From Bradyrhizobium sp. 195 (GTDB lineage: Bacteria; Pseudomonadota; Alphaproteobacteria; Rhizobiales; Xanthobacteraceae), in assembly GCF_023101665.1 (NCBI RefSeq), contig NZ_CP082161.1, forward strand, positions 3,844,001-3,908,000: a stretch of 64,000 nt of DNA, written 5' to 3'. This document shows, in pieces, positions 17,667 through 34,967 of this stretch. The number at the start of each line of letters is the position of its first letter. The stretch's first letter is position 1. Both the position numbers and the translations under genes were made by a program. Below the pieces are notes generated by a model. That model saw nothing but the letters and a program-made list of their open reading frames with translations, searched no databases and was not told the DNA's origin.

Positions 17667-17767
17667 GTCATTCCGGGGCCCGAGCGTAGCGAGGAAGCCC
17701 GGAATCTATAACCACCAGCGGGGGTAATGGATTCCGGCTTCGCCGCTTCGCGTCGCCCCGGAATGAC
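17667..17767. repeat. Intergenic inverted-repeat element, GTCATTCCGGGG family
   Basis: The 101-nt unit has perfect 12-nt inverted ends, GTCATTCCGGGG at 17667-17678 and CCCCGGAATGAC at 17756-17767. Imperfect inner repeats (CCCGGAATC / GGATTCCGG) lie between them. It fills the gap between the convergent dioxygenase and nicB genes and reaches the last base of the nicB stop codon. A second copy of the same family is at 62704-62809. Confidence 0.75.
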
Positions 17768-20700
17768 TAGTGGGTTGAGCTGCGCACCCGCGCGATGGTT
17801 TCGCGCACATCGGTCCACGCCGGCTTGTCCGGCGCGAACTGCCTGCGCAGGAAGGTGACGAGCTCCTCGATTTGCGCATCGCTCATGCTGCCCTTGAAGG
17901 CGGGCATGTAGCCGAGATCGCTCGACACCGGCTCGATGACACCGTGCAGGATCACCTGCACGAGATTGCCCGACGTGGCGCTGTGCAGATTGCTGTTGAG
18001 CGCGAGCGAGGGCCGGCTGCCGAACAGCGGCAGACCGCCGACCTCGTGGCAGACGGCGCAGGCGCCCTGATAGAGGCGCGCGCCGCTGGACGGCGCGACG
18101 GTGACTTGGGTCGCGCTTTCGAGCCGTGCCGCAAGCGTGCCCGGCGTCTCGGCCGCGCTGTCGTTGAACGAGTTGAGATAGACGGCCATCGCGCGGATGT
18201 CCTGATCGGGCAGGGCTTTGAGGTCCCTGACCACAGGCGCCATCGGGCCGGCGGCAACGCCGTGATAGCGCGAATGGCCGGTGCGCAAATAAGTGAACAG
18301 TTCGTCCTCGCTCCAGGGGACCGGCGCATGCGAGAGCGAGGTCAGCGGCGGCGCTTCCCAGCCCTCGGCGAAGCCGCCGGCCAGATAGGATTCGCGCTGC
18401 TCGGCGCCGAGCGCATTGCGCGGCGAGTGGCAGCCGCTGCAATGGCCGAGGCCCTCCACGAGGTAGGCGCCGCGATTCCATTGCTCGGATCTGGCGGGGT
18501 CGGGCTTGAACTCTTCTGTCCGGTGAAACAGCGCGTTCCAGCCTGCGAGCAGCGGGCGCAGGTTGAACGGGAAGGCCAGTTCATTCGCCGGTGTCGTCGC
18601 GCGCACCGCAGGCTGCGCCATCAGGTAGGCGTACAGAGCCTGAAGGTCGGCCTCGTTGGTCTTGGCGAAATGCGTGTAGGGAAAGGCTGGGTAGAGCTGG
18701 CGGCCGTCGCGATGCAATCCATCGCGCATCGCCCGTTCGAAGGCGGGATAGGACCAGGCACCGATGCCGGTCTCGACGTCCGGCGTGATGTTGGTGCTGT
18801 GGATGATGCCGAACGGCGTTTCCAGCGCGCGGCCCCCCGCGTTGAGCACACCATTGATCGTGGTGTGGCACTCCGCGCAATTGCCGAGCGCGGCAAGCTG
18901 CTGGCCGCGCGCGATGGTCGCCGCAGAATAAACTGATGCATCGGGGCGTGCGATCGGCGCCATCGCGCGCCCGGGCAGAAGCGCGGCGCCGATACCGATC
19001 GCGGCGGTGCAAACGGCCGCAATCGTCGTGAAGATGCTGGCGCGTTTGGCGAAGGGATTTTCCCAGATGCGGGACGGCTGCGGCGCGGCTGGCGCGGGCA
19101 ACGCTTGCGGTGTCGCCGGCATCCCGCCGTGCAGCCCCTTCAGGATGCGCTCGGGTGTGAACGGTGGCTCGCGAAAGCGCACGCCGGTGGCATCAAAAAT
19201 CGCGTTCGCAATCGCCGCTGCGCTCGGGACGGACGCGGATTCGCCGACGCCGAGCGGCGGCTGGTGCTGACGCGGCAGCAACAGCACGTCGATCTTGGGC
19301 ACATCAGGGAAGGGGATGATCGGATAGGCGCCCCATTCGCGTGCCGCCACCGCGCCGCGCTCGAACGAGACCTCCTCCATCAGCGCGCGGCTCGTGGACT
19401 GGATGACGTTGCCGTGGATCTGGTGGCGCACGCCGTCCGGATTGATCATCAGGCCGGAATCCTGGCCCGCAACCACGCGCGTGACGCTGACGTCGCCGGT
19501 CGACTTGTTCACGGCGACGTCGGCGACCCACGCCGACCACGCCGCGCCATAGCCGGGAAACTTGCTGTGGACGTAGAGCGCATAGGCAAAGCCGCGTCCA
19601 TGCACGACCTCGCCGTCCTTCTCCTCGCGAACAGGGCGCGGTATCCAGCCGGCGCGCTCGGCCACCGCATTGACGAGATCGACCGCGCGTTGGTCTTTCA
19701 GGTAACGCAGGCGATATTCGATCGGGTCGACGCCGGCCTCGGTTGCGGCCTCGTCGATGTAGGATTCATGCGCAAAGGTGTTCGGCAGCGCCGAGACGCC
19801 GCGAAACCAGGACGCGCGCACGATCGGCGCCATGTCGTGGGCGACGACGCGCATGTGGTCGTAGTCATAGGGCGGGATCGCGGTGCGGTCGCCCATCTGA
19901 AGCACGGCCGGTTCGGGCGAGATCCGGCCGGTGAGCAGCAGCGCCAGCGTCGGTGCGGCATTCGAGGGATAGCGCGTGGCGAGATCGTAAGCAGCGATGC
20001 CGCCGTGGGCATCGAGCCCGCCATTGACGTCGATGAGCTGCGCAGTGCCCTTGGGCTCCCAGGCATGCTCCTGCTCGCGCGTCAGCTGCACGCGCACGGG
20101 TCGGCCGACCGCGCGCGACAGCAGCAGCGCATCCGCGGTAACGTCATCGGCGCAGTTGCGGCCGTAGCAGCCCGCCGCCTCCAGGCGGATGACCTCGATC
20201 TCGCTCTCAGGACGCTCGATCAGCAGCGCAAGGTCGCTGCGCAGCACATGCGGGTTCTGCGTGCCCGACCAGACGCGGATGTTGCCGTCCTGAAAATCCG
20301 CGACCGCGCAGGACGGGCCGATCGAGGCGTGCATCTGATACGGCCAGACATAGGTGCGCTGCATCGGCTTGGCTGCGCCTGAGATCGCCGCATCGACATC
20401 GCCCTTGTCGATCAGCGTGCGTGGCGTCGACGGATTGGCGCGCAGCGCGGTCTCGACGTCGGCGAGATCGGTGAGGGTGGGCGTCGGTTTCCAGCCGACC
20501 TTGAGCTGTTCTGCCGCGCGGATCGCATTCTCCTCGCGCTCGGCGACGACACCGACGAAATCACCGATACGGACCACGGCGATGACGCCGGGGACGTCGC
20601 GTACCGAGGATTCATCGACCGCGATCAGACTGGTGCCGACGAACGGGCCGGCATCGACACCGGCATAGGGCGGACGCACCACACGGCCGTGCAGCATGCC

Positions 20701-21294
20701 GGGCACCCGGATATCGTGCACAAAAGTCAGCTCGCCCGTGGCCTTGGCGGGCAGGTCGACGCGCGGCATCGACTGACCGACGATGGCGTAGTCGCCGACG
20801 GGTTTGACAGCGACGTCGTCGGCAAGCTCGAGGCGGATCGTCTCGCCGCCGATCAACTCGCCATAGCTGACGCTGCGATTGTCGTGCCCGCGTACGAGGC
20901 CGTCCTCAATCCTGAGGTCGGCCTCCGGCAGCTCCAGCCGCTCGGCCGCGCGCGTGATCAAAAAGTGACGCGCTTGCGCGGCCGCTTTGCGCAGCGGCAC
21001 GGCGGTGATTTGGATCGTCTCGCTTGCGATCGTCGCACCCTGGTTCGGCACCACAGAGGTGTCGCCGAGCACCACGACGACGCGCGCAAAGGACACATTT
21101 AATTCCTCGGCGACGATCTGGCCGAGGGCGGTGCGGATGCCGGTGCCGAGATCGACATGGCCGTTATAGGCCGTGACCGATCCGTCCGCGGTGATGCGCA
21201 CGAAAGTCTCGGATGTGACCTCGTCCACGGTGCGGACGACGACGAGCGAACCGGATTGCCGCTCAGCTCCATCAGGGACAGGGGAGGTCATCAA
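17767..21294 (-). CDS. nicB: Nicotinate hydroxylase large subunit: molybdopterin domain fused to tri-heme cytochrome c
   Basis: This 1175-residue protein joins a xanthine-dehydrogenase-type molybdopterin subunit (about residues 1-725, with the GVGESASVPSAAAIANAI signature near its end), a membrane helix (about 735-765), and three cytochrome c domains with heme motifs CAECH (near 805), CSGCH (near 950) and CAVCH (near 1080). This layout and length match NicB of Pseudomonas putida, which hydroxylates nicotinate at C6 and passes electrons to the respiratory chain. Its ATG overlaps the nicA stop by 4 nt. The opposite strand carries 6-hydroxynicotinate reductase, which would use its product and strongly supports nicotinate over other N-heterocycles. 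Isoquinoline oxidoreductase relatives are the main alternative. Confidence 0.85.
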   Translation of the reverse strand: MMTSPVPDGAERQSGSLVVVRTVDEVTSETFVRITADGSVTAYNGHVDLGTGIRTALGQIVAEELNVSFARVVVVLGDTSVVPNQGATIASETIQITAVPLRKAAAQARHFLITRAAERLELPEADLRIEDGLVRGHDNRSVSYGELIGGETIRLELADDVAVKPVGDYAIVGQSMPRVDLPAKATGELTFVHDIRVPGMLHGRVVRPPYAGVDAGPFVGTSLIAVDESSVRDVPGVIAVVRIGDFVGVVAEREENAIRAAEQLKVGWKPTPTLTDLADVETALRANPSTPRTLIDKGDVDAAISGAAKPMQRTYVWPYQMHASIGPSCAVADFQDGNIRVWSGTQNPHVLRSDLALLIERPESEIEVIRLEAAGCYGRNCADDVTADALLLSRAVGRPVRVQLTREQEHAWEPKGTAQLIDVNGGLDAHGGIAAYDLATRYPSNAAPTLALLLTGRISPEPAVLQMGDRTAIPPYDYDHMRVVAHDMAPIVRASWFRGVSALPNTFAHESYIDEAATEAGVDPIEYRLRYLKDQRAVDLVNAVAERAGWIPRPVREEKDGEVVHGRGFAYALYVHSKFPGYGAAWSAWVADVAVNKSTGDVSVTRVVAGQDSGLMINPDGVRHQIHGNVIQSTSRALMEEVSFERGAVAAREWGAYPIIPFPDVPKIDVLLLPRQHQPPLGVGESASVPSAAAIANAIFDATGVRFREPPFTPERILKGLHGGMPATPQALPAPAAPQPSRIWENPFAKRASIFTTIAAVCTAAIGIGAALLPGRAMAPIARPDASVYSAATIARGQQLAALGNCAECHTTINGVLNAGGRALETPFGIIHSTNITPDVETGIGAWSYPAFERAMRDGLHRDGRQLYPAFPYTHFAKTNEADLQALYAYLMAQPAVRATTPANELAFPFNLRPLLAGWNALFHRTEEFKPDPARSEQWNRGAYLVEGLGHCSGCHSPRNALGAEQRESYLAGGFAEGWEAPPLTSLSHAPVPWSEDELFTYLRTGHSRYHGVAAGPMAPVVRDLKALPDQDIRAMAVYLNSFNDSAAETPGTLAARLESATQVTVAPSSGARLYQGACAVCHEVGGLPLFGSRPSLALNSNLHSATSGNLVQVILHGVIEPVSSDLGYMPAFKGSMSDAQIEELVTFLRRQFAPDKPAWTDVRETIARVRSSTH

Positions 21295-21773
21295 TCACCG
21301 GCCTCGGCGAGCTGGCCCGACGCGCGCATCACGGCGCGCAGGATTTCGACATGGGTGCCGCAACGGCAGAGATTGTAGCGCAGCGCCGCCTGCGCCTCCT
21401 GTTCGCTCGGTCGCGGGTTGATCGCGAGGAGCGCCTTGGTGGTCATGATCATGCCGTTGAGACAATAGCCACATTGCGCGGCCTGTTCGTCGACGAAGGC
21501 CTGCTGCACCACATCAGGCTTGTCGCGCGTGCCGAGCCCTTCGAGCGTCACGATGTCGCGGCCGGCGCAGCCGCTCAGGGGAATCACGCAGGAGCGGGCC
21601 GCGGCTCCGTCGATCAGGACAGTGCAGGTGCCGCATTCGCCGAGTCCGCAACCATATTTGGGGCCGTTGAGCGCGAGGTCGTTGCGCAGCACATAGAGCA
21701 GCGGCGTCTCTGGCGCCGCAGCGATCTCGTGGATCCTGCCGTTCACGGTGAGGCGGATCGGTGCCTGCGGCAT
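21291..21773 (-). CDS. nicA: Nicotinate hydroxylase small subunit, two [2Fe-2S] clusters
   Basis: This 160-residue protein carries the plant-type cluster motif CGLGECGTCTVLIDG followed by a cysteine in ARSC, and the second cluster motif CGYCLNGM with CRCG near the C-terminus. Such subunits carry electrons from the molybdenum site to the acceptor, here the cytochrome c domains of NicB. I start at the ATG at 21773 (MPQAPIRLTVNG); a TTG at 21797 in frame would add eight residues and is less likely. A GAGG run precedes the ATG closely. It is the first gene of the nicAB operon, facing palindromic sites at 21827 and 21978. Confidence 0.87.
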   Translation of the reverse strand: MPQAPIRLTVNGRIHEIAAAPETPLLYVLRNDLALNGPKYGCGLGECGTCTVLIDGAAARSCVIPLSGCAGRDIVTLEGLGTRDKPDVVQQAFVDEQAAQCGYCLNGMIMTTKALLAINPRPSEQEAQAALRYNLCRCGTHVEILRAVMRASGQLAEAGD

Positions 21774-21826
21774 CCTCGTTCCCAAGCTCGCGGCCAAGTG
21801 CTCGCAAATTTACGTCGCGACGATAC

Positions 21827-21842: not shown

Positions 21843-21977
21843 TGCAAGCCGTCCATGCCGCACTGCAGCGCGACTGCCTTCTTTGTGGACAGAGCGGATA
21901 GGCAAATGAGGTTTTATGCGCCAGCCGCATCTTTTGCGCCGCACCGCCGCTTGACAGCCATCCGGAGCGCGCGCACC

Positions 21978-22011: not shown

Positions 22012-23469
22012 ATGGTGATGGAAACAACGAGCGCTGCCATCGACAAGATCCGCTGCGATGCATGTCCGGTGATGTGCTACATCAAGCCGGGTGCGGCGGG
22101 TGCCTGCGACCGCTACGCCAATCACGAGGGCAAGCTCGTCCGCGTCGATCCGCATGTGATCCTGGAGCGCACCGTCTCACATGGCGGCAAGCTGGTCCCG
22201 TTCAGCCGCACCGAAGATTGGGACGGCAAGATCGTCCACGAGCCCTCGACCTTCGTCACTGCGATCGGCGCGGGCACCACCTATCCCGATTACAAGCCGG
22301 CGCCCTTCATCGTCTCTGCTGAGGTCGACGGCGTCGACATGGTGACTGTCGTCACCGAGGGCATCTTCTCCTATTGCGGCATCAAGGTGAAGATCGACAC
22401 CGACCGATATCTCGGCCCCGAAACCGCGACGGTGCGCGCGCAGGGCGAGGCGGTTGGCCATGTCACCACCAGCGAATACGGCTCGCAGATGCTCTCGCTC
22501 GGCGGCGTGCATCATCTGACCGGCGGCTCCAAGAAGGAGGGCCGCGTCACCTGCGACACGCTGATGGACCTTGCCAATTGCAAGGCGGTGGAGCTGACCA
22601 TCGACGGTGGCGCGAGCGTGGTGGTGCAGGCCGGCCAGCCGCCGATCGTCAACGGCGTGAAAGAAGAGCGCATGCGCGTCGGCTGCGGCTCGGCGACGAT
22701 CGGCATGTTCGCCAAGCAATGGCACGGCAAGGTCGACGAGGTCGTCGTGGTTGACGACCACATCACCGGCGTGCTGAGCGAACACCAGGCCGGGAAGCTG
22801 CTCGATATCGCCGACACCGGCATCAAGATGAAAGGCCGGCGCTCGACGCCCGGCCGCTATTTCCAGGTTGCCGATCCCGGCACGGGGTGGGGCGGCACCA
22901 ACATCTCCGATCCGCTGGCGATCCTTGGGCCGTTCGATGCCAAGGAGGCCAAGGCCGGTCTGACCATGCTCATGGTTTCCACCACCGGCGAGCATTCGTC
23001 CTATTACGTGCTCGACGAGGCCCTGAAGCCGGTCGAGACCGAGATGCCTGCCGACTTGAAATTCTCCGTCGAGCGCATCCAGGAGAATTGCGAGCCGGCG
23101 CTATGCACGGTGCTGTTCATGGCCGGCGCTGGCGGCTCGCTGCGCGCGGGCGTGACCGACAACCCGGTGCGGCTGACGCGCTCGGTGAAGGACGCGCTGA
23201 CGCGCGTCACCAGCGGCGGCGCGCCGGTCTATGTCTGGCCGGGCGGGGGTATCACCTACATGGTCGATGTCACGCAGATGCCGGCGGGCGCGTTCGGCTA
23301 TGTGCCGACGCCGGCGCTGGTCGCGCCGATCGAGTTCACGATGAAGCTGTCGGACTACGCTGCGCTCGGCGGGCACATGGACTATGTGAAGCCGCTGTCC
23401 GAGGTGCAGGGGGGCGACGATGTCCGGCAATTGCCCTGGCAGAATCCAATTCCGGGACCCCGGGCATGA
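22012..23469 (+). CDS. hnr: 6-Hydroxynicotinate reductase
   Basis: This 485-residue iron-sulfur flavoprotein is expected to reduce 6-hydroxynicotinate to 1,4,5,6-tetrahydro-6-oxonicotinate. The N-terminus has a cluster motif with Cys15, 18, 22 and 32 (CDACPVMC...GAC); other cysteines such as C122, C181 and C189 could bind further clusters. The Eubacterium barkeri enzyme is reported to hold a covalently bound flavin and several Fe-S clusters and to use ferredoxin. LTGGS at 169-173 faintly recalls an ApbE flavinylation site. An ATG at 22018 is an alternative start. The gene lies opposite nicAB and overlaps a UPF0280 gene. I recognise the family from its clusters and context; activity is inferred. 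Confidence 0.85.
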   Translation: MVMETTSAAIDKIRCDACPVMCYIKPGAAGACDRYANHEGKLVRVDPHVILERTVSHGGKLVPFSRTEDWDGKIVHEPSTFVTAIGAGTTYPDYKPAPFIVSAEVDGVDMVTVVTEGIFSYCGIKVKIDTDRYLGPETATVRAQGEAVGHVTTSEYGSQMLSLGGVHHLTGGSKKEGRVTCDTLMDLANCKAVELTIDGGASVVVQAGQPPIVNGVKEERMRVGCGSATIGMFAKQWHGKVDEVVVVDDHITGVLSEHQAGKLLDIADTGIKMKGRRSTPGRYFQVADPGTGWGGTNISDPLAILGPFDAKEAKAGLTMLMVSTTGEHSSYYVLDEALKPVETEMPADLKFSVERIQENCEPALCTVLFMAGAGGSLRAGVTDNPVRLTRSVKDALTRVTSGGAPVYVWPGGGITYMVDVTQMPAGAFGYVPTPALVAPIEFTMKLSDYAALGGHMDYVKPLSEVQGGDDVRQLPWQNPIPGPRA

Positions 23470-24362
23470 CAAGGCTCCCGCAAATCGCATTGCTGTCTGA
23501 TGGCCGGCGGCTGCATTTGCAGGATGGACCGATCGATCTGATCGTGGGGGCGAGGGGAGAGGCAGGAGAGGTGCGCGCGGCCTATGAGGCTGCGGCGCGG
23601 CGGTTCACGGGGCTGCTCGACGAGCTCTGCGCGGAGTTGCCGGAGCTGCGCGCTGCTGCCAGGGGGCGGACTGCGCTGAGGGGCGTTGCGGCGCGCCGTA
23701 TGCACGCCGCGGTGGCGCCCTTTGCCGCTGATTGCTTCATCACGCCGATGGCCGCCGTTGCCGGCAGCGTGGCGGAGGAGATTCTCGGCGCAATGCTCGG
23801 CGCTGCGACGCTCAATCAGGCCTATGTCAACAATGGCGGCGACATCGCCCTTCATCTCGGCCGGAGCGAGCATTTTTCGATTGGCCTGATGGATCGGCCC
23901 GATCGTGATGGCGTGATGCGAGCTTTGCGGGTCGAGGCGGACGACCCGGTGCGGGGCGTCGCGACCAGCGGGCGCCATGGCCGCAGCTTTTCGCTCGGGA
24001 TTGCCGACGCGGTGACGGTGCTGGCCGCAACGGCATCGCAAGCCGATGCGGCGGCGACGGTCATCGCCAATGCCGTTGATCTGCCGGGACATCCTGCCAT
24101 CATCCGTCAGCCGGCCAGCGAGCTTCAGCCCGACAGCGATCTCGGTCCACGCCTCGTCACCCGCGACGTCGGCCCGTTGTCGCACGACGAGATCGCCACA
24201 GCACTCGAATCTGGCGCGGAATGTGCACGCCAATTGTTCGATCGCGGCTTGATCGAGGGTGCGGTGTTGCAGCTTTGTGGTGATATGCTTGTCATCGGAC
24301 CGAAAGATATTGAACGGCAAGAAGCGCGCCCACGTAAGCTGGAGAACGCGGTTCATGCCTGA
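23466..24362 (+). CDS. UPF0280 protein, ApbE-like fold, candidate flavin transferase
   Basis: This 298-residue protein belongs to UPF0280, whose members share the fold of ApbE, the enzyme that attaches FMN covalently to proteins. Recognisable segments are RRLHLQDGPIDLIVGARG, PMAAVAGSVAEEILGAM, YVNNGGDIALHL and GVATSGRHGRSFSLGIADAV; the NNGGDIA and ATSGR...ADAVTV blocks correspond to conserved ApbE positions. Its ATG overlaps the stop of the 6-hydroxynicotinate reductase gene by 4 nt. Because the known reductase has a covalent flavin, I propose that this gene loads that flavin. Family membership is fairly sure; the role is a hypothesis. Confidence 0.8.
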   Translation: MTRLPQIALLSDGRRLHLQDGPIDLIVGARGEAGEVRAAYEAAARRFTGLLDELCAELPELRAAARGRTALRGVAARRMHAAVAPFAADCFITPMAAVAGSVAEEILGAMLGAATLNQAYVNNGGDIALHLGRSEHFSIGLMDRPDRDGVMRALRVEADDPVRGVATSGRHGRSFSLGIADAVTVLAATASQADAAATVIANAVDLPGHPAIIRQPASELQPDSDLGPRLVTRDVGPLSHDEIATALESGAECARQLFDRGLIEGAVLQLCGDMLVIGPKDIERQEARPRKLENAVHA

Positions 24363-24388: not shown

Positions 24389-24973
24389 ATGAGCGCGATC
24401 ATCCGCAAGATCGTCACCGTCGTCGAAGAGACGCAGATGGAGATGGGCCGGCAAGTTTCACCGCCGACGCGGCGAGCCGCGGCAATCGCCGTGATCGAAA
24501 ATCCCTTCGCGGGGCAATATGTCGAAGACCTTTCGCCGCTAATCACGATCGGCGAGGAGCTGGGCGAGCTGCTGTCGAAGCGCGCGGTGGCGGCTCTCGG
24601 CATCGACGGTTCCAAGGCGCAGAGCTATGGCAAGGCCGCGGCTGTCGGCGAGAACGGCGAGCTGGAACATGCCGCTGCAATTCTTCACCCGAAGATGGGC
24701 GCGCCAGTACGCAAGGTGCTGACCAAGGGTGCCGCGCTGATTCCGTCGTCGAAGAAGCGCAGCGGGCCCGGCACCACGCTCGACATTCCCCTCGGTCACA
24801 AGGACGCAGCCTTCGTGCGTAGTCACTTCGATGGCATGGAAGTACAGATCAACGACGCGCCGCGCGCCAATGAGATCATGGTCGCGGTCGCTGTCACCGA
24901 CAGCGGCCGGCCTTTGCCGCGCGTCGGCGGGCTGACGGTTGCGGAGATCAAAGGCGAAGACGGTCTAAGATAA
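24389..24973 (+). CDS. DUF1185 'amino acid synthesis' family protein
   Basis: This 194-residue protein matches the DUF1185 family (MSAIIRKIVTVVEETQMEMG, then NPFAGQYVEDLSPL and a C-terminal VAVAVTDSGRPLPRVGGL). The family name is historical and no reaction is established. A GAGGACAC site precedes the ATG. It lies third in the operon after the reductase and UPF0280 genes, ahead of an ABC importer. Members often accompany N-heterocycle or amide catabolic genes, so a hydrolytic or isomerising step late in the nicotinate pathway is possible, but nothing in the sequence proves it. Confidence 0.78.
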   Translation: MSAIIRKIVTVVEETQMEMGRQVSPPTRRAAAIAVIENPFAGQYVEDLSPLITIGEELGELLSKRAVAALGIDGSKAQSYGKAAAVGENGELEHAAAILHPKMGAPVRKVLTKGAALIPSSKKRSGPGTTLDIPLGHKDAAFVRSHFDGMEVQINDAPRANEIMVAVAVTDSGRPLPRVGGLTVAEIKGEDGLR

Positions 24974-24993
24974 TTTTAACGGTGGAGGTTGGG

Positions 24994-26333: not shown

Positions 26334-28223
26334 ATGGCCTTTTATGTCGTACAGTTTCTGACCGGTCTCGCCAGCGCAGCGTCGCTGTTTCTGGTGGCCT
26401 CGGGCCTGTCGATCATCTTCGGCGTGACGCGGATCGTGAATTTCGCGCATGGCGCCTTCTACATGATCGGCGCCTACATCGCCTTCACGCTGACGGAGCG
26501 CCTGTCGGGTGCGCTCGGTTTCTGGGGCGCGATCGTGATGGCCGCGTTTGCCGTGGCCTTGATCGGCGTGCTCGTCGAGATGGTGCTGCTCCGGCGCATC
26601 TATCATGCGCCGGAGCTGTTCCAGCTGCTCGCAACCTTCGGCCTGACCCTGATGGTCGAGGATCTCGTCGTGCTGATCTGGGGGCCTGACGATCTCGTTG
26701 GTCGCCGCGCGCCGGGCTTCAAGGGCGCCATCGATTTCTTCGGCCAGAACATCCCGAGCTACGACCTGTTCCTGATCGTGCTCGGCCCGGTCGTGCTCGG
26801 CATTCTCTGGCTGCTGTTCCAGCGCACGCGGTGGGGCGTCTTGGTGCGCGCGGCGACGCAGGACCGCGATATGGTCGCAGCGCTCGGCGTCAACCAGAAA
26901 TGGCTGTTCACGTCGGTGTTCGCGGTCGGGGTCTTCCTGGCCGCGCTCGGCGGTGCGCTCCAGATCCCGCGCGATGCCGTGCATCATGCCATGGATCTGC
27001 GGATCATCGTCGAGGTCTTCGTCGTGGTCGTGATCGGCGGCCTCGGCAGCATCGTCGGCGCCTTCGTCGCAGCCGTGCTGGTCTCCGAGCTCAACGCCTT
27101 CGGCATCCTGATCTTCCCGAAGATTTCCATCATCCTGGTCTTCCTGGTGATGGCCGTGGTGCTGATCGTGCGACCCTGGGGCCTGTTCGGCAAGCCGGAG
27201 GCGCCCGCGCGCAAGACGCCGGGTCTCACCGTCAATCCCTGGCGGCCGTTGACATCGAATGAGCGGCTCGCCGCGCTAGCGGCACTCCTGATCGCGGCGA
27301 CGCTGCCGCTGTTCGCCGGCAATTATCTGCTCACCGTCGGCTCGGAGATCGCGATTTTCGTCATCTTCGCCGTCAGCCTGCACTTCCTGATGTCGGTCGG
27401 CGGGCTCGCGTCCTTCGGCCACGCCGCTTATTTCGGCCTCGGTGCTTATGGCGTCGCTTTCCTCGCCAAGATGGCGGGGCTGCCGATGATCGTCTGCCTG
27501 CTGCTCGGCCCGCTGCTCGGCTGCATGGGCGCCGCCGTGTTCGGCTTCTTCGCCGTGCAGCTCTCCGGCGTCTATTTCGCAATGCTGACGCTCGCTTTCG
27601 CGCAGATCGTCTGGTCGATCGCGTTCCAGTGGGTGAGTGTCACTGGCGGCGACAACGGCATTCTGGGCGTTTGGCCGGAAAAATGGGCGGCAAGCCCGTC
27701 GAACTTCTACTGGCTGGCGCTCGGCGTCGCCGCGCTGGTGACCGTCGCGCTGCGGGCCATGGTGTTCTCGCCGTTCGGCTATGCGCTCAGGGCCACGCGC
27801 GACTCGCTCCTGCGCACTGAAGCGATCGGCATCAACGCCAAGCGCATCCAATGGACCGCCTTCGTGATCGCCGGCACGACAGCCGGCATCGGCGGCGCGC
27901 TGTTCGCCTATCTCAAGGGCAGCGTCTTCCCTGACAATCTTGGCATCTCGCTGTCGGTCGATGCACTGGTCATGGTGCTGCTCGGCGGCGTCGAGACGGT
28001 GTCGGGCGCGGTGATCGGCGCCATCGTCTACAAGGCGCTGAACATCTGGCTGGTCAGTCAAACCGATCTGTCGAAGCTCGTGCTTGGCGGCTTCATCATG
28101 CTGATCGTCGTCGTCTTCCCCAAGGGCATCGTCGGCATGCTGGAGATGCTGGCGCAGCGTCGCAAGAAAGCATCGCCGCCCGGGTCCCCCTTGCTTGCCA
28201 AGCCGATCGAGTCCGCCGAATGA
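26334..28223 (+). CDS. Fused LivH-LivM type permease
   Basis: One 629-residue chain contains both inner membrane permease domains of a branched-chain-type ABC importer. The first half (about 1-290) is LivH-like, with SGLSIIFGVTRIVNFAHGAF and the cytoplasmic loop ATQDRDMVAALGVN. The second half (about 310-610) is LivM-like, with SVGGLASFGHAAYFGLGAYG and RATRDSLLRTEAIGIN. These domains are usually separate genes of about 300 residues each. About 16 membrane helices result. Its stop overlaps the start of the following ATPase gene by 4 nt. Confidence 0.92.
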   Translation: MAFYVVQFLTGLASAASLFLVASGLSIIFGVTRIVNFAHGAFYMIGAYIAFTLTERLSGALGFWGAIVMAAFAVALIGVLVEMVLLRRIYHAPELFQLLATFGLTLMVEDLVVLIWGPDDLVGRRAPGFKGAIDFFGQNIPSYDLFLIVLGPVVLGILWLLFQRTRWGVLVRAATQDRDMVAALGVNQKWLFTSVFAVGVFLAALGGALQIPRDAVHHAMDLRIIVEVFVVVVIGGLGSIVGAFVAAVLVSELNAFGILIFPKISIILVFLVMAVVLIVRPWGLFGKPEAPARKTPGLTVNPWRPLTSNERLAALAALLIAATLPLFAGNYLLTVGSEIAIFVIFAVSLHFLMSVGGLASFGHAAYFGLGAYGVAFLAKMAGLPMIVCLLLGPLLGCMGAAVFGFFAVQLSGVYFAMLTLAFAQIVWSIAFQWVSVTGGDNGILGVWPEKWAASPSNFYWLALGVAALVTVALRAMVFSPFGYALRATRDSLLRTEAIGINAKRIQWTAFVIAGTTAGIGGALFAYLKGSVFPDNLGISLSVDALVMVLLGGVETVSGAVIGAIVYKALNIWLVSQTDLSKLVLGGFIMLIVVVFPKGIVGMLEMLAQRRKKASPPGSPLLAKPIESAE

Positions 28224-29011
28224 GCGATGCACCCCCACTTCTTGCGGTCGAAGGTCTGACCAAATCCTATGGCGGCATTCATGCCGTGCGCGGCGTGTCG
28301 TTCTCGCTGCGCGCCGGCGAGATCCTGGCGCTGATCGGCCCGAACGGCGCCGGCAAGAGCACCTGCTTCGACATGCTCAACGGCCAGAACAAGCCCGATA
28401 CCGGCCATGTTCGCCTGCTCGGCGAAGACATTACGGCCAGGAAGCCGCGTGAGGTCTGGCGCCTTGGCGTCGGGCGAACCTTCCAGATCACCGCGACCTT
28501 TGCCACCATGACCGTGCGCGAGAACGTCCAGGTGGCGCTGATCTCGCACGGGAAGCAGCTGTTCAACCTCCTCGGCTCGGCACCGAACTTCGATCGCGGC
28601 GAGGCCGGCCGGCTGCTCGAGCTCGTCGGCATGGGCGGCTACGCGGATCGTCCGTGCGGCGAGCTCGCCTATGGCGACCTCAAGCGGCTCGAGCTTGCGG
28701 TGGCGCTCGCCAACCAGCCGAAGCTGCTCCTGATGGACGAGCCGACCGCGGGCATGGCGCCGCGCGAGCGGGTCGATCTGATGCGGCTGACCGCGCAGAT
28801 CGCCCGCGAAAAGTCGATCGGGGTGCTCTTCACCGAGCACGACATGGATGTGGTGTTCGAGCACGCCGACCGGATCATCGTGCTCAATCGCGGCACGCTG
28901 ATCGCCGAAGGCACGCCGGCCGAGGTGCGCGGCAATCCGCAGGTGCAGGCGGTCTATCTCGGCGAAGGCCTCGTCTATGATGCCCGCCACCGCGAGGGAG
29001 CCTCGGCATGA
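28220..29011 (+). CDS. LivG-type ABC importer ATPase
   Basis: This 263-residue ATPase has Walker A GPNGAGKST, a signature loop degenerated to LAYGDLKRLELA, Walker B LLLMDEPTAG and the LivG C-terminal extension (GEGLVYDAR). It forms the ATP-hydrolysing heterodimer with the next gene and drives import by the fused permease. ATGA overlaps at both ends (28220-28223 and 29008-29011) indicate tight translational coupling of the importer genes. Confidence 0.93.
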   Translation: MSDAPPLLAVEGLTKSYGGIHAVRGVSFSLRAGEILALIGPNGAGKSTCFDMLNGQNKPDTGHVRLLGEDITARKPREVWRLGVGRTFQITATFATMTVRENVQVALISHGKQLFNLLGSAPNFDRGEAGRLLELVGMGGYADRPCGELAYGDLKRLELAVALANQPKLLLMDEPTAGMAPRERVDLMRLTAQIAREKSIGVLFTEHDMDVVFEHADRIIVLNRGTLIAEGTPAEVRGNPQVQAVYLGEGLVYDARHREGASA

Positions 29012-29712
29012 AGCTGACCGTCGAGGGGCTCAACAGTCATTACGGCCCGGCGCATATCCTGTTCGACATCGGCTTCGAGGTCGGCGAGGGCGAGGTGGTG
29101 GCGCTGCTCGGGCGCAACGGCGCCGGAAAGTCGACGACGTTCCGCTCGATCGTCGGCCTCGTCGCGCAACGAACCGGCCGCATCATGTTCGAGGGCAAGG
29201 ACGTCTCGGCAAAACCGACCCATGAGATCGTCCGCGAGGGACTGGGCTATGTGCCGGAAGAGCGGCGCATCTTCACCGACCTGACGGTGGAGGAAAACCT
29301 TGAAGTCGGCCGCCAGCCGAAGCGTCCGAACGCTCCGCACTGGACCCGTGAAAAGCTGTTCACACTGTTTCCGAATCTGGGCGAGATGCGGGGCCGTCCG
29401 GGCGGCCGCATGAGCGGTGGCGAGCAGCAGATGCTCACCATCGCCCGCACACTGATGGGCAATCCGTCGCTGGTGCTGCTCGACGAGCCGTCGGAAGGCC
29501 TGTCGCCGAAGATCGTGGAACAGATGGTCGATGCCATCCTGACCATGAAGAAGGAGGGCGTCAGCATCGTCGTCTCCGAGCAGAATCTGCATTTCGCGCG
29601 GTTGATCTCCGATCGCGCCTACATCATCGAGCGCGGCCGCGTCTGCTTCGGCGGCACCATGGCCGAGCTCGACGCGCGTCCGGATATCCGCGACGCGCAT
29701 CTATCGTTGTGA
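29008..29712 (+). CDS. LivF-type ABC importer ATPase
   Basis: This 234-residue partner ATPase has Walker A GRNGAGKST, signature MSGGEQQML (the normal LSGGE with Met for Leu), Walker B VLLDEPSEGL and a switch His in VSEQNLHFA. Length and short C-terminus are typical of LivF. It completes the receptor, permease and two-ATPase importer of the nicotinate operon. Confidence 0.93.
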   Translation: MKLTVEGLNSHYGPAHILFDIGFEVGEGEVVALLGRNGAGKSTTFRSIVGLVAQRTGRIMFEGKDVSAKPTHEIVREGLGYVPEERRIFTDLTVEENLEVGRQPKRPNAPHWTREKLFTLFPNLGEMRGRPGGRMSGGEQQMLTIARTLMGNPSLVLLDEPSEGLSPKIVEQMVDAILTMKKEGVSIVVSEQNLHFARLISDRAYIIERGRVCFGGTMAELDARPDIRDAHLSL

Positions 29713-29737: not shown

Positions 29738-30193
29738 ATGGCGAGAAGCGTCACGGCGAAGAAGAGCATCAAGCTGGCAAAGCCGCCTTACGTGCTCGAC
29801 GAGCAGGTCGGCTTCATCCTGCGCCAGGTCTGGCAGCGTCACAGTTCGATCTTCGCCCGCGATATCGGCACCAATTTGACGCCGACGCAATGGGCGGCAC
29901 TGTCGAAACTCGCCGAGACCGGGCCGTGCTCGCAGAACCAGCTCGGCCGGCTGACTGCGATGGACGTCGCCACCATCAAGGGCGTGATCGACCGCTTGAC
30001 GGCGCGCGGCCTGACCGAGACCAGCCAGGATCCCGAGGACGGACGGCGCCTGCTGGTGAGCCTCACGCGTGCCGGTCAGCAGGTTGCGGAGAAGGTCGCG
30101 CCGAATGCGCTCGCCATCACCCGAGAGACCCTGGCGCCGCTCGACGCCAAGGAGCGCGAGACGCTGATGGCGCTGTTGAACAAGCTGCGGTGA
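29738..30193 (+). CDS. MarR-family regulator, probable nicotinate-pathway repressor
   Basis: This 151-residue winged-helix protein of the MarR family has the recognition segment NQLGRLTAMDVATIKGVIDR, wing SQDPEDGRRLLVSLT and flanking dimerisation helices. It is the last gene of the reductase-importer operon. Pseudomonas nicotinate genes are controlled by the MarR protein NicR, which fits this location. The palindromes at 21827, 21978 and 34111 are the natural candidates for its operators. Ligand and targets are inferred. Confidence 0.87.
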   Translation: MARSVTAKKSIKLAKPPYVLDEQVGFILRQVWQRHSSIFARDIGTNLTPTQWAALSKLAETGPCSQNQLGRLTAMDVATIKGVIDRLTARGLTETSQDPEDGRRLLVSLTRAGQQVAEKVAPNALAITRETLAPLDAKERETLMALLNKLR

Positions 30194-30341
30194 GCGGCCA
30201 CTCAGATGACTGCCGCGGGCGCTGCGGCGCTGCCCCTGTGGCCGAATGGCGCTATGTTTCTCCTTTCGGATGTTGCTCTGCGGTCACACATGTTTGGGTA
30301 GAGATCTGATAATAATCCGCTCAAATACGGAGCGGGGAATC

Positions 30342-31748
30342 ATGAGGGGCCTACTAATCGGCGCGGCGCTGACGATGTCTTTGGTCGGCGCGGCCAAGGC
30401 GGCTGATTTGGGGAGGATGCCTGTGAAGGCGCCGGTAACGGCGACCCTCTACAATTGGACCGGCTTCTACGTTGGCGGCAATTTCGGATACGGCGTCGGC
30501 CACAATTCGAGCGAACCATTCCTGGGAGCCCCGCCAACTGATCGTGCGACACTCGCGCCCCGCGGCGTGCTGGCCGGCGTTCAGGGAGGTTATAATTGGC
30601 AGGTCAACAGTCTCGTCGTGGGCGTTGAGGCCGACTGGCAGTGGACCGATGAGCGCGATACCTACTGCTTCAGCTGCGCGGTTGCGATCGGCCGTGGGGT
30701 TGGCCAGGAGATTCCATGGTTTGGTACCCTGCGTGGTCGCGTCGGCTATGCCGCGGGGTCGGTGCTGTTTTACGCGACGGGCGGTGTCGCCTACGGCCAG
30801 ATCAAACAGATTATCGATTGCTGTTTTGGAGCTCCAACGGCCATCGTAAACAACACGAAAACCGGTTGGGTCGCAGGCGGCGGGATTGAAGCTGCACTGG
30901 CAGGGAACTGGACCGCGAAAGCGGAGTACCTGTACACGGACTTCGGCAATGTTTCGAACGTCCAGCTTATCCCGGTCGCTTTTGGCGGACCGGCCACACA
31001 GGTGGCGTCGGGTGATGTACGGAATCATGTCGGACGCGTAGGTGTGAACTATCGCTTTGGAGGGCAGGGCTACGTCCCGTCAGGCGGAGGGGCGAGTGCG
31101 TCGGCTTACAACTGGACAGGTGTCTATCTCGGCGGAAATTTGGGCTATGGCGTCGGGCGCAATGCAACGACCCAGGCGTTCGCCGGCGTTCTCACGGACC
31201 GCCTTACCATCGGGCCTGACGGCGTGCTCGGTGGCGGCCAGATTGGTTACAATTGGCAATCGGGAGCCGCCGTGATCGGTCTGGAAGGTGACATCCAGGG
31301 GACCGACCAGCGCGACACTATCTGCCGGCTGTGTCAGCCCACGGCGGGTTTCTTGTATCAGAACTTCACCCAGGAAGTATCCTGGTTCGCCACGGTGCGT
31401 GGCCGACTTGGATACGCGTCGGGTCCAGCCTTGTTCTACGTCACAGGTGGCGCTGCTTTCGGTGAAATCAAAACCACAGTGAACCAGCAAAGTCCCCCGC
31501 TAAACGCCACCTCGCAGTTTACCAACAGGAAGGCCGGCTGGACCCTTGGTGGTGGCGTCGAGGCCGCACTCCTGGGCAATTGGAGCGTCAAGGCCGAGTA
31601 TCTCTACCTGGATCTCGGCTCGATCTCACAGACCGTCATTGCTCCAGGCTTCACCGCTAGCACGTTGGTCAGCGATGTCCGAGATCATGTCGCCCGAGTT
31701 GGATTGAACTACAGGTTTGGTAGCAGTCCAGTGGTTGCCAAGTACTGA
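30342..31748 (+). CDS. Outer membrane beta-barrel protein, internally duplicated
   Basis: The product (468 residues from the ATG at 30342, site CGGAGCGGGGA) has a signal MRGLLIGAALTMSLVGAAKA and two copies of a porin-like barrel of the Omp25/RopB type. Copy 1 (about 35-240) opens YNWTGFYVGGNFGYGVGHN and copy 2 (about 250-460) opens YNWTGVYLGGNLGYGVGRN. Both have a paired-cysteine loop (DTYCFSC and DTICRLC), a WFGTLRGRVGYA or WFATVRGRLGYA strand, and end NYRFG. Family members normally have a single 8-strand barrel of about 200-250 residues, so this is a tandem fusion. Function in the envelope is presumably structural. Confidence 0.85.
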   Translation: MRGLLIGAALTMSLVGAAKAADLGRMPVKAPVTATLYNWTGFYVGGNFGYGVGHNSSEPFLGAPPTDRATLAPRGVLAGVQGGYNWQVNSLVVGVEADWQWTDERDTYCFSCAVAIGRGVGQEIPWFGTLRGRVGYAAGSVLFYATGGVAYGQIKQIIDCCFGAPTAIVNNTKTGWVAGGGIEAALAGNWTAKAEYLYTDFGNVSNVQLIPVAFGGPATQVASGDVRNHVGRVGVNYRFGGQGYVPSGGGASASAYNWTGVYLGGNLGYGVGRNATTQAFAGVLTDRLTIGPDGVLGGGQIGYNWQSGAAVIGLEGDIQGTDQRDTICRLCQPTAGFLYQNFTQEVSWFATVRGRLGYASGPALFYVTGGAAFGEIKTTVNQQSPPLNATSQFTNRKAGWTLGGGVEAALLGNWSVKAEYLYLDLGSISQTVIAPGFTASTLVSDVRDHVARVGLNYRFGSSPVVAKY

Positions 31749-32032
31749 GCCCCGAGCAGTTTCGTGGGCGAGCGCTTAGCAATGCCAACCAGCATCAGGG
31801 CTGTGGATCACGGGCCTTGTGCTAATGGCTCGCAGTCACCCCGCGCCGTGCTCGATGCCAAAGCGCGTGAGATCGGCTCGCCTGCGAAGGCGAGGGCGAG
31901 AAGTTTCGCTCCAATCCCAGGATCTCGGTCGCTGCGGATGGCCGGCTGGTGATCGAGAACGGTCCGGTCGGACAGGCCAAGCGGCAATTCTATGTGCGTT
32001 GTGAAATCCCGAGGCGGCGCTGACCGGGTCGA

Positions 32033-32722: not shown

Positions 32723-32837
32723 GTCTCCTCGACGCTCCAGCAACGCACGGCCCTTGCCGGGCTGTCCGCATTAGACGCAGCAGGCAGGAGACCAGTTCAA
32801 CGTCTTCGAGCGGCCACAGCGCGCCGCCCCGGCCGCG

Positions 32838-34034
32838 TCACTTCGCCACGACCTCCGGCACCTTGCCGGCGGGCGGGGTGTTGCGGCTGCGCTGGGTGCG
32901 CACGATGCCGTCGATGATGGTCATGCCGATGCCCGGGAGATCGCCGAGCTGGACGCTCTCCAGGATGTTCTTGCCCGGCGAGTGCTGGGCCTTGTCCATG
33001 ATGACGAAATCGGCGGAGCGGCCGACTTCGATCAGGCCGCAGTCGAGCTCGCGCATCCGCGCCGTGTTGCCGGTGGCGAGACAAAACGCGATCTCGGCCG
33101 GCAGATCGCCGAGCGAGGACAGCATCGAGACCATGCGCAAGATGCCGAGCGGCTGCACGCCGGAGCCGGCGGGCGCATCGGTGCCGAGGATGACCCGGTG
33201 AAGGTCGCCCATCTCGCGCGCGGTGCGCAGCGTGAACAGCGCCGAGCGTTCATTGCCGTTGTGCACGAGCTCGAGGCCACGCTTGCAGCCCTCGCAGATG
33301 CAGCGGATCTGGTCGTCCGGCAGCGCCGTGTGGCCGCCGTTGATGTGGCCGACGACGTCGGTGTCGGCCTCCAGCACCACGTCCTTGTCGATCAGGCCGG
33401 AGCCGGGGATCGAGGGGCCGCCGGTATGGATCGTGCTCCGGATGCCATATTTGCGCGCCCAGCCGACCATCTTTCGCGCGGTCGGGCCGTCCTTGACGCC
33501 GCCGAGGCCGACTTCGCCGAGCAGCTTGACGCCGGCGGCGGCGAGCTCCTTGAAATCTTCCTCGACCATCTCGCATTCGATCACCGGCGCGCCAGCGTGA
33601 ACCTTCACGCCGCCAGGCCGCAGATTCCAGAATGCGCGCTGGGCGAAGATCGCCATTGCCTTGAGACCGACGACGTCGCGCGGGCGGCCGGGCATGTGTA
33701 CTTCGCCGGCCGAGATCATCGTGGTGACGCCGCCATGTAAATTGCTGTCGATCCAGCCGATCTGGTTCTGCCGGGGCGTCCAGTCGCCCGCGACCGGGTG
33801 GACGTGGCTGTCGATCAGGCCGGGCGCGACCGTGGTGCCGTTCGCCTCGACGATAGTGGTCGCGCCTTCGGTGTTGAGGTCCTTGAAGCGGCCGATCGCG
33901 GTGATCTTGCCGTTCTCGGCGACAATGGTGTCGCCGTCCAGGATCGGCTTTTCCAGGGCGCCGGACAGGATCAGGCCGATATTCCGGACCACGAGCTTCG
34001 AAGGTCCGGTGGCCTGGGGTGCGTCATGCGCCAT
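32838..34034 (-). CDS. ena: Enamidase, amidohydrolase superfamily
   Basis: This 398-residue metal hydrolase is expected to open the ring of 1,4,5,6-tetrahydro-6-oxonicotinate to give ammonia and 2-formylglutarate. It has the HxH metal motif (GLIDSHVHPVAGDW) and blocks that I recognise from the E. barkeri enamidase: LHGGVTTMISAG, GGVKVHAG, GEVGLGGVKD, HTGGPSIPGS, GHINGGHT, TDAPAGSGVQPLGILR and the C-terminal SRNTPPA. These go well beyond generic amidohydrolase likeness. The ATG at 34034 has a strong AAGGAG site. It is transcribed divergently from a ferredoxin reductase gene, with a composite palindrome between. Confidence 0.87.
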   Translation of the reverse strand: MAHDAPQATGPSKLVVRNIGLILSGALEKPILDGDTIVAENGKITAIGRFKDLNTEGATTIVEANGTTVAPGLIDSHVHPVAGDWTPRQNQIGWIDSNLHGGVTTMISAGEVHMPGRPRDVVGLKAMAIFAQRAFWNLRPGGVKVHAGAPVIECEMVEEDFKELAAAGVKLLGEVGLGGVKDGPTARKMVGWARKYGIRSTIHTGGPSIPGSGLIDKDVVLEADTDVVGHINGGHTALPDDQIRCICEGCKRGLELVHNGNERSALFTLRTAREMGDLHRVILGTDAPAGSGVQPLGILRMVSMLSSLGDLPAEIAFCLATGNTARMRELDCGLIEVGRSADFVIMDKAQHSPGKNILESVQLGDLPGIGMTIIDGIVRTQRSRNTPPAGKVPEVVAK

Positions 34035-34110
34035 GGAAGGAGCTCCTTATTCCTAACTGCAACGCTTCCGATCTTGGGCAGCCTTGACCCCGGGAGCAAG
34101 CAGGATTATT

Positions 34111-34140
34111 CATTAGTACACGAATGATCGTGTACAAACG
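34111..34140. promoter_or_regulatory. Composite operator between enamidase and ferredoxin reductase genes
   Basis: Inverted arms GTACACG (34116-34122) and CGTGTAC (34129-34135) are 6 nt apart. The right part read in reverse, CGTTTGTACAC, equals 11 nt of the nicA-side site, and ACGAATGAT (34120-34128) equals part of the reductase-side site. The left flank CATTAGTACA also matches the TetR-type operator at 16553-16561. One site could serve both divergent promoters. Confidence 0.6.
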
Positions 34141-34193
34141 ACGCATAGCTGCCCGCCTCGAAAACCGCAATTGACGCGACACGGATAGGTGAG

Positions 34194-34967
34194 ATGAGCA
34201 ATTTCAATCAGGAAAGCGTTTTGAGCGTCCACCACTGGACCGACACGCTGTTCTCCTTCAAGACCACCCGCAGCCCGACCTTCCGCTTCCGCAACGGCGA
34301 ATTCACCATGATCGGGCTCAAGGTCGGCGAGAAGCCGCTGCTGCGGGCCTACAGCGTCGCCAGTGCCAATTACGAGGACACGCTCGAGTTCTTCTCGATC
34401 AAGGTGCCGGATGGCCCGCTGACCTCGCGGCTCCAGCATCTGAAGCAAGGCGACGAGATCATCGTCAGCCGCAAGGCGACCGGCACGCTGGTGATCGACA
34501 ACCTCGAGGAGGGGCGCAACCTCTACCTCATCGGCACCGGCACGGGCCTGGCGCCGTTCCTGAGCGTGATCAAGGACCCCGAGACCTACGAGCGGTTCGA
34601 GAAGGTCGTGCTGCTGCACGGTTGCCGTCACGTCAAAGAGCTTGCCTATGGCGAGATGATCAACGAGACGCTGCCGAAGGACGAGCTGATCGGCGAGTAC
34701 ATCCGCGAGCAGCTCATCTACTATCCGACCGTGACGCGCGATCCCTTCCGCAACCGCGGCCGCATCACCGATCTCATCACCTCGGGCAAGCTGTTCGCCG
34801 ACATCGGCCTGCCGGCCCTGGAAGCCGCCCACGACCGCGTTATGATCTGCGGCAGCCCGGCGCTGGTGGCGGATACCCGCGTGCTGCTGGGCGAGCGCGG
34901 CTTTATCGAGGGCAACCACGGCGAACCGGCCCAATTCGTCGTCGAAAAGGCCTTCGCCGAGCGCTAG
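34194..34967 (+). CDS. fpr: Ferredoxin/flavodoxin-NADP+ reductase
   Basis: This 257-residue FAD enzyme of the bacterial Fpr type exchanges electrons between NADPH and ferredoxin. The FAD site RAYSVAS, the NADP loop GTGTGLAPFLS, and CGSPALV with the C-terminal VEKAFAER are all present. Length is typical of subclass I Fpr. A housekeeping role is possible. However, it shares an intergenic operator with the enamidase gene, and the clostridial 6-hydroxynicotinate reductase depends on ferredoxin, so here it may feed electrons to that reductase. No ferredoxin gene is seen in the window. Confidence 0.9.
   Translation: MSNFNQESVLSVHHWTDTLFSFKTTRSPTFRFRNGEFTMIGLKVGEKPLLRAYSVASANYEDTLEFFSIKVPDGPLTSRLQHLKQGDEIIVSRKATGTLVIDNLEEGRNLYLIGTGTGLAPFLSVIKDPETYERFEKVVLLHGCRHVKELAYGEMINETLPKDELIGEYIREQLIYYPTVTRDPFRNRGRITDLITSGKLFADIGLPALEAAHDRVMICGSPALVADTRVLLGERGFIEGNHGEPAQFVVEKAFAER

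Follow-up and report, generated by a model that had tools for sequence, protein, structure and literature searches.

A predicted nicotinate-degradation cluster of Bradyrhizobium sp. 195: 6-hydroxynicotinate reductase, its UPF0280 partner and an apparently exchangeable ring-opening enzyme

Introduction

The stretch of DNA analyzed here (below, the window) comprises 64,000 nucleotides of the 9.1-Mb genome of Bradyrhizobium sp. 195, and between positions 17767 and 34967 it harbors genes for a molybdenum hydroxylase (NicAB), 6-hydroxynicotinate reductase (HNR), proteins of the UPF0280 and DUF1185 families, an ABC importer, a MarR regulator, an enamidase and a ferredoxin-NADP reductase of the Fpr type (Table 1). 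A preliminary description, made from the letters of the window, had named the same genes, and profile and Protein Data Bank (PDB) matches find them where it had placed them. We estimate at about 0.78 the probability that the cluster is the aerobic form of the tetrahydro-oxonicotinate route of nicotinate breakdown. The identities of the genes and their conservation are taken from sequence comparison, degradation of nicotinate via 6-hydroxynicotinate is argued by analogy with a published relative, and we infer the import substrate, the electron route and the regulation.

In the proposed route, the importer would bring nicotinate into the cell, where NicAB would hydroxylate it to 6-hydroxynicotinate and pass the electrons via three hemes to the respiratory chain. 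Electrons from NADPH would reach HNR via Fpr and ferredoxin, and the ring would be dearomatized to 1,4,5,6-tetrahydro-6-oxonicotinate. This intermediate is a delta-lactam, which the enamidase would open to 2-formylglutarate and ammonia. Furthermore, 6-hydroxynicotinate would release the MarR repressor, a cytosolic, ApbE-like UPF0280 would attach the covalent flavin of HNR, and DUF1185 would act on the ring-opened product.

Nicotinate fermentation in Eubacterium barkeri has HNR and the enamidase in common with the window, and in its relative Acetobacterium bakii (L059; handles in L, G and f denote our loci, genomes and families) UPF0280 and DUF1185 are found in the same locus as these two. The systems differ in that the hydroxylase of E. 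barkeri is said, after work of Alhapel in 2006, to be of an FAD type without hemes, and in that its route reportedly ends in propionate by B12 chemistry.

Using BLAST with E. barkeri genes, Shettigar et al. (2012, PMC3511419) found the cluster in Bradyrhizobium japonicum USDA110 (blr3818-blr3830), Azorhizobium caulinodans ORS571, Rhodopseudomonas palustris HaA2 and strain SG-6C. The last of these degrades nicotinate as a carbon source with transient 6-hydroxynicotinate in the supernatant, and its HNR is 42% identical to that of E. barkeri (PMC3511419). As far as the available part of that paper goes, the first three steps, the putative importer and two conserved proteins that it leaves unexplained, here taken to be UPF0280 and DUF1185, are the same as in the window; the organisms belong to the same or related genera, no essential difference from the window is seen, and that part does not use the terms enamidase, formylglutarate or nicAB. 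The claim of the preliminary description that a complete aerobic gene set is little described does not hold in view of this publication, i.e., the hybrid pathway has been in print since 2012. What is new is the proposal for the function of UPF0280, the exchange of enamidase and lactamase, and the residue match in MarR. The metabolic part of the description (respiratory NicAB, followed by HNR and enamidase of the E. barkeri type) is borne out by the identities of the enamidase (47%) and HNR (41-46%), the ligands in MarR and the physiology of SG-6C.

Table 1. Genes of the cluster and of its immediate surroundings in the window, with the basis of each assignment
Feature	Position	Strand	Basis
Catechol 2,3-dioxygenase gene (outside the span)	16671..17639		TIGR03211, 368 bits (cut-off 320)
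nicB, molybdopterin subunit with one predicted membrane span and three cytochrome c domains	17767..21294	-	Pfam MoCoBD_1/2, Cytochrom_C (three stretches)
nicA, hydroxylase [2Fe-2S] subunit	21291..21797	-	Fer2_2, Fer2
HNR, 6-hydroxynicotinate reductase	22012..23469	+	database names of close relatives; alignment
UPF0280, ApbE-like protein	23466..24362	+	NF003322, 421 bits (cut-off 290); 2o34
DUF1185 / AA_synth protein	24389..24973	+	PF06684, 251 bits; 2qtp, E 4e-88
ABC importer, periplasmic binding protein	24982..26196	+	Peripla_BP_6; 3i45, E 6e-154
ABC importer, fused permease	26334..28223	+	BPD_transp_2, two stretches
ABC importer, ATPase 1	28220..29011	+	ABC_tran, BCA_ABC_TP_C
ABC importer, ATPase 2	29008..29712	+	ABC_tran
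MarR regulator	29738..30193	+	domain match; alignment with BpsR
Outer-membrane barrel gene	30246..31748		OMP_b-brl, two stretches
Enamidase	32838..34034	-	2vun, E 9e-110, 47% identity over whole length
Fpr-type ferredoxin-NADP reductase	34194..34967	+	NF008178, 163 bits, under its cut-off of 390

6-Hydroxynicotinate Reductase and Its Partner UPF0280

In public databases, close relatives of the window's HNR bear the name 6-hydroxynicotinate reductase. The protein matches no Pfam or NCBIfam family at E 0.001, and a search of the PDB with its profile gave no convincing relative; the ferredoxin-driven dearomatization proposed for it is rare in aerobes. The nearest protein, from Bradyrhizobium sp. 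CB1717, is 99% identical. The alignment has 57 other rows, and 41 of them, beyond the proteobacterial group and mostly from anaerobic lineages, are 41-46% identical to the window's HNR. Five cysteines (C15, C18, C22, C32 and C225) are invariant in all 58 rows, and these, together with the linkage to an enamidase, place the protein in the HNR family. The sole hint on its fold is a touch, at residues 122-158 (window 22375-22485), of GCV_T_C, a model of the glycine-cleavage T-protein barrel, which 32 of the 58 members touch weakly (best E 3e-4).

Of 59 other Bradyrhizobium genomes, 57 carry HNR, and the same search, with the window's own genome counted, located it in 65 of 100 genomes. A scan with the enamidase pair, which retained the best 80 among 416 related stretches and in which matches were scored at E 1e-5, returned loci from Bacillota, sulfate reducers, archaea, Actinomycetota, Pseudomonadota and others. 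Among these best 80, HNR is present in 62, UPF0280 in 58 and DUF1185 in 70, and all three accompany the enamidase in 54; Fpr is found in five. The clustering is beyond chance because HNR is widespread in the genus and the four genes are located together across many phyla. Because they occur together in aerobes as well as in anaerobes, the module is neither aerobic nor fermentative as such, and the label "fermentative-type" that had been given to the second and third steps is misleading. Three actinobacterial metagenome-assembled genomes (MAGs; L108, L109, L110) combine enamidase, DUF1185 and a molybdenum hydroxylase, and no HNR or UPF0280 was found in these possibly incomplete assemblies.

UPF0280 is a dedicated partner of HNR. 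Among 398 genomes of Pseudomonadota (own counted), 32 carry HNR, and UPF0280 (NF003322 above its cut-off) is found in exactly these 32 (Fisher p 6e-48, kinship ignored); G386 and G465 show short matches that stay below the cut-off. In all 32 it follows HNR on the 3' side without change of contig or strand, the matched stretches being -7 to 563 bases apart, and in the window its start, with the visible Met taken as such, overlaps the stop of HNR by 4 bases. A search of 72,556 plasmids located HNR on 26, and UPF0280 on those 26 and one more. The pairing recurs in the best 80 enamidase loci, where UPF0280 stands beside HNR in 57 of 62; in two of the other five (L066, L074) HNR is cut by a contig end. 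UPF0280 without HNR is seen in one of these loci (L116), and there the HNR of the genome lies just past the fetched stretch. Eighteen loci have an enamidase and no HNR, and the genomes of 16 of these were examined (L096 and L131 were left out). HNR is found elsewhere in ten, nine of which carry UPF0280, and in the remaining one only 190 bases of contig follow HNR; UPF0280 is found in none of the six genomes without HNR, which are mostly MAGs.

A few irregular genes were seen. The additional plasmid copy of UPF0280, in Hydrogenophaga sp. BPS33 (L211), has no HNR, is flanked by IS1071 (four similar places are found in one plasmid) and looks like a left-over carried by an insertion element. An internal TGA lies inside the matched stretch of HNR in G234 (L151 / L055) and of UPF0280 in G478 (L155), and HNR of G115 (L150) is split over two pieces; these anomalies reflect decay, frame slips or sequencing errors. 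An open frame in which HNR and UPF0280 are fused (metagenome protein P0073) was not counted, as it is known from one contig and could result from faulty sequencing.

A flavin role is proposed for UPF0280 because the window's genome harbors no ordinary ApbE (PF02424) and because the protein is distantly similar to the ApbE flavin transferases. A profile search of the PDB matched the solved relative 2o34 at E 2e-19 and, weakly, FMN transferases (best E 0.076); nine of the 13 rows with E values of 10 or less bear the name FMN transferase or ApbE. Direct comparison of the UPF0280 and ApbE profiles with hhalign brought the GG, TSG and ADxxxT motifs of the two families into line, at a probability of 89% (E 2e-6) as compared to 0.1% for a DUF1185 control. 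The ApbE profile contained three rows only (six of nine loci gave no fitting 250-residue frame), so the match is indicative. Residues D194 and T198 of UPF0280, invariant in 57 rows, align with the Asp and Thr of ApbE that bind Mg. By these marks, the D and T positions included, UPF0280 counts as a homolog of ApbE. Ordinary ApbE is absent from seven of the 13 HNR-carrying Bradyrhizobium genomes searched, the window's included.

The HNR of E. barkeri, purified by Alhapel in 2006, reportedly contains covalently bound flavin and iron-sulfur clusters. Several points weigh against assigning ApbE chemistry to UPF0280. The covalent flavin is assumed for the window's HNR from what is said of the E. barkeri enzyme. 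Three HNR genes have no UPF0280 in their 3' flank even when profile searches are included, two of them with longer flanks (L078, L138) and one with 0.7 kb left (L089). The segment that carries the catalytic His of ApbE falls in a gap of UPF0280 in the three-row alignment, and none of the 92 HNR sequences contains the target motif of ApbE, D-x-x-[S/T]-G-A-[S/T] (this set omits matches shorter than 400 residues and 20 of the 28 loci L031-L058, which nearly or fully duplicate longer loci). From this gap and the missing motif it follows that the chemistry of UPF0280 cannot quite equal that of ApbE and that the attachment site must differ, i.e., UPF0280 would work like an ApbE rather than be one. 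A candidate attachment site is GCGSA(T): GCGSA occurs in 92 of 92 HNRs and is followed by Thr in 80. The available part of a review (PMC12052999) names the catalytic His and describes cytosolic ApbEs.

Alternatively, UPF0280 may be a structural, iron-sulfur assembly or regulatory partner of HNR that has an ApbE-like fold without its chemistry, a view that is possible and, on balance, doubtful. The same gap and missing motif speak for it, and the strict pairing with HNR would suit a subunit equally well. However, invariant residues at the ApbE Mg positions would be needless in a mere scaffold, and the lack of an ordinary ApbE in the genome also argues against this view. That UPF0280 attaches the covalent flavin of HNR in an ApbE-like manner has about even odds. 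If so, a family of unknown function gains a role, and active HNR would be obtainable by co-expression. UPF0280 was not found by name in the literature searched.

Exchange of the Ring-Opening Enzyme

Residues H66, H68, E163, H192, H219 and D275 (numbering of the 2vun row), which we take to be the metal ligands of 2vun, are identical in the window's enamidase. With this set and similarity to 2vun over the full length, the protein bears the sequence marks of an enamidase of the E. barkeri type, and it is proposed to open tetrahydro-6-oxonicotinate in a metal-dependent reaction.

The ring-opening step appears to be swappable, in that other HNR-carrying bacteria harbor a putative ATP-dependent lactamase (HyuAB) in place of the enamidase. 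Within the 32 HNR genomes of Pseudomonadota, the enamidase is found at an identity of at least 64% in 18, and the best match in the other 14 is at E 5e-7; two HNR-less genomes contain a 41-42% paralogue. The 20 kb around HNR in those 14 genomes include a HyuA gene in eight, in five of these together with HyuB. A search for HyuA at an identity of at least 61%, which covered the HNR-carrying genomes and the plasmids, recovered it in 16 of the 32, i.e., in all 14 without enamidase and in G218 and G289, and the remaining 16, all of which have the enamidase, show no HyuA above 46%. In the fetched stretches, HyuB stands beside HyuA in 13 of the 16. Thus, the enamidase without a close HyuA is found in 16 genomes, the reverse in 14 and both genes in two, such that a single ring opener is found in 30 of 32. 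In the two exceptions the enamidase-like gene lies away from HNR, groups with two Aminobacter genes in a distinct clade that has good support and adjoins a RutB-like hydrolase gene (below cut-off), in G218 also a regulator with a changed pocket; we would sort both genomes, on these sequence features, with the lactamase type.

The 26 HNR plasmids are divided in the same manner: the enamidase (at least 69% identity) is found on 16 and HyuA (at least 61%) on ten, with none carrying both and none neither. In Sagittula stellata the gene order is hyuB-hyuA-hydroxylase | fpr-hnr-UPF0280-DUF1185-DUF1185-Rieske-ABC-marR, and in Sulfitobacter pontiacus it is enamidase | fpr-hydroxylase-hnr-UPF0280-DUF1185-DUF1185-marR-Rieske-ABC. 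In nine genomes of family f24 (L142, L146, L149, L199-L203, L206), HyuAB is arranged head to head with the Fpr gene, like the enamidase gene of the window, which is divergent from fpr; no Fpr was seen in the fetched stretch of the other seven HyuA genomes.

Caprolactamase alpha is the best curated model for HyuA and caprolactamase beta that for HyuB (505 and 321 bits in L142), and scores were 490-509 bits in the five HyuA and 318-321 bits in the two HyuB proteins scanned. With scores near one half (HyuA) and one third (HyuB) of the cut-off of 1000, these proteins were rejected as caprolactamase itself, and they would only be members of the wider kind of ATP-dependent lactamases. CapAB is such an ATP-dependent lactamase (available part of PMC8453981), and the lactamase OplAB is strongly active on delta-valerolactam (available part of PMC11033972); the likeness to CapAB and OplAB concerns HyuAB of the window's relatives and not proteins of the window. 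No publication linking a HyuAB-type lactamase with the HNR route was found in the accessible text of the sources searched, where co-mentions of oxoprolinase and hydroxynicotin- came from a fungal transcriptome and a sugarcane metabolome.

When the lactamase label is mapped on the HNR tree (10 of the 92 sequences, with ring opener unknown or unlinked, were left out), three changes are obtained, at least two of which are forced by supported branches, and a single origin is found in 0% of 200 bootstrap trees. The switch between enamidase and lactamase has therefore occurred more than once, and not often, with gains and losses indistinguishable. The small number of changes is also what would be expected if the distribution reflected kinship instead of replacement of one step, an explanation that we regard as unlikely. 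One genus supplies ten of the 16 enamidase-only genomes, one family (f24) nine of the 16 HyuA genomes, and Sulfitobacter 12 of the 16 enamidase plasmids, and a close HyuA is found on seven plasmids without HNR. Yet, both types are found within families f42 (G262, G474) and f51 (G432 against four others), within Rhizobium and within the plasmids of Roseobacteraceae; a single lactamase origin is not recovered; HyuAB genes lie inside the HNR cluster itself in several relatives; and hydrolysis of delta-valerolactam by OplAB is published (PMC11033972, as above). If enamidase and lactamase do replace each other, one step is filled by unrelated enzymes, one of which spends ATP, a new substrate is added to those of ATP-dependent lactamases, and some "hydantoinase" annotations in rhizobia and roseobacters become testable.

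A more far-reaching proposal, which we put forward tentatively and judge slightly less probable than its negation, combines the two themes. UPF0280 would be the founder of a second, cytosolic flavin-transferase branch, with HNR as its sole target and a site unlike the ApbE motif, and HNR would form the core module of aerobes, fermenters, sulfate reducers and archaea, with either a metal amidohydrolase or, unrelated to it, a lactamase driven by ATP to open the same delta-lactam.

Substrate and First Step

The NicB subunit contains molybdenum-cofactor domains followed by cytochrome c domains with three CXXCH motifs (at residues 806, 952 and 1079), as the preliminary description had it, and a hydrophobic stretch (approximately residues 754-772) after the molybdenum part. 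With the [2Fe-2S] subunit, NicAB is thereby of the cytochrome type, and this type is the mark of the aerobic version of the cluster. A full-length match to such a NicB was found in three of the 80 enamidase loci (Azorhizobium, Aquabacter and Jiella), and elsewhere the gene may lie beyond the stretch. Cytochrome c-type NicAB is also common to the window and the nic cluster of Pseudomonas putida, where a decarboxylative maleamate route follows after 6-hydroxynicotinate. Comparison with characterized enzymes, which had been suggested as a check, turned out well for the enamidase and less so for NicB. Among solved structures, the sequence of NicB is closest to an aldehyde dehydrogenase (8gy3), with nicotinate dehydrogenase of E. 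barkeri (3hrd) a weaker match, and this counts against nicotinate; the genetic context favours nicotinate as the substrate.

For the window's MarR, 2nnn is the closest match and BpsR the next; the latter binds 6-hydroxynicotinate via Tyr15, His23, Arg26 and His32 (available part of PMC6837509). Three of these four ligands are kept: Y18, R29 and H35 correspond to Y15, R26 and H32 of BpsR, while H23 is replaced by F26, and the predicted pocket agrees with 6-hydroxynicotinate. At HNR loci (n = 28, window excluded) the last His is kept in 23 MarR proteins, one of which, as the gene was called, lacks the Tyr; it is changed in four and unreadable in one (L137). At enamidase loci without HNR, Ala is found at this position in six of seven. 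In addition, nicotinamidase genes above the curated cut-off occur in all six scanned HNR loci (L127, L141, L142, L144, L147, L149; from a family of ten loci), which again points to nicotinate as the substrate.

The preliminary description had asked whether the HNR and enamidase homologues belong with enzymes of a different substrate. For HNR, the nicotinamidase genes speak for nicotinate, and some enamidase-like genes away from HNR look otherwise. Seven loci (L111, L119, L120, L133, L136, L157, L207) harbor an enamidase-like gene, tandem DUF1185, a RutB-like hydrolase of the isochorismatase family and MarR, with no HNR beside them; several have a different ABC importer, and Ala was found in the MarR pocket of the six that were read. 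HNR-less enamidase loci may, to judge by these features, serve another compound, possibly in another pathway for N-heterocycles. However, HNR is present elsewhere in six of the seven genomes whose MarR was compared at HNR-less loci, and three of the enamidases (L119, L133, L136) group within the clade linked to HNR.

It is improbable that the window's cluster acts mainly on another pyridine (e.g., a chlorinated or N-methylated nicotinate) with nicotinate as a side substrate: SG-6C feeds 6-chloronicotinate into the route and a Rieske oxygenase gene stands beside HNR in some relatives, but 6-chloronicotinate enters through 6-hydroxynicotinate (PMC3511419, in the part available), and both the nicotinamidase genes and the residues of the MarR pocket speak for nicotinate. 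The Rieske oxygenase gene lies near DUF1185 and the importer in L124, L128, L156, L208, L210 and L215, and is of the VanA_C type in L124, the one scanned; our guess is that it N-demethylates trigonelline to nicotinate. For the importer, no publication was found on what is bound by 3i45, the solved binding protein nearest to that of the window.

DUF1185, Lower Steps and Neighboring Genes

Of the 32 HNR genomes, 31 carry DUF1185, the exception being G234, and the gene is kept with the enamidase in 13 of the 18 HNR-less loci. It was rejected as a partner of the enamidase alone, as 14 of these HNR genomes are without enamidase. Relatives of the protein have a chorismate-mutase-like fold (available part of PMC2954203). 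A RidA-family enamine deaminase was rejected on sequence (hhalign gave 0.1% against 15 rows of PF01042), with the fold-level idea remaining. We propose, with low confidence, a role for DUF1185 downstream of the ring-opening step, with the enamine or 2-formylglutarate as possible substrates. The missing profile match to RidA and the presence of DUF1185 in 28 of 366 HNR-less genomes tell against such a role. A second copy in the same genome (L160, G000:C1:3168967-3169503) stands beside a gene of the fumarylacetoacetate-hydrolase family and a GntR regulator.

The proposed route is further weakened by the absence of lower-pathway genes from the cluster, where, in agreement with the preliminary description, no dedicated 2-formylglutarate enzyme was recognized. 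Beside the enamidase on the S. pontiacus plasmid lie genes for an acyl-CoA dehydrogenase, an enoyl-CoA hydratase, a 3-hydroxyacyl-CoA dehydrogenase and an AMP-binding protein, which would suit a glutaryl-CoA route; this set was not seen in the other plasmid HNR regions that were read.

An outer-membrane barrel gene lies inside the span between marR and the enamidase gene (Table 1), and none was called at the corresponding place in the Afipia relatives L122 and L130. At E 1e-5, none of the 80 enamidase loci contains a match to the catechol 2,3-dioxygenase gene, which was therefore rejected as a member of the cluster; it converges on nicB from just outside the span.

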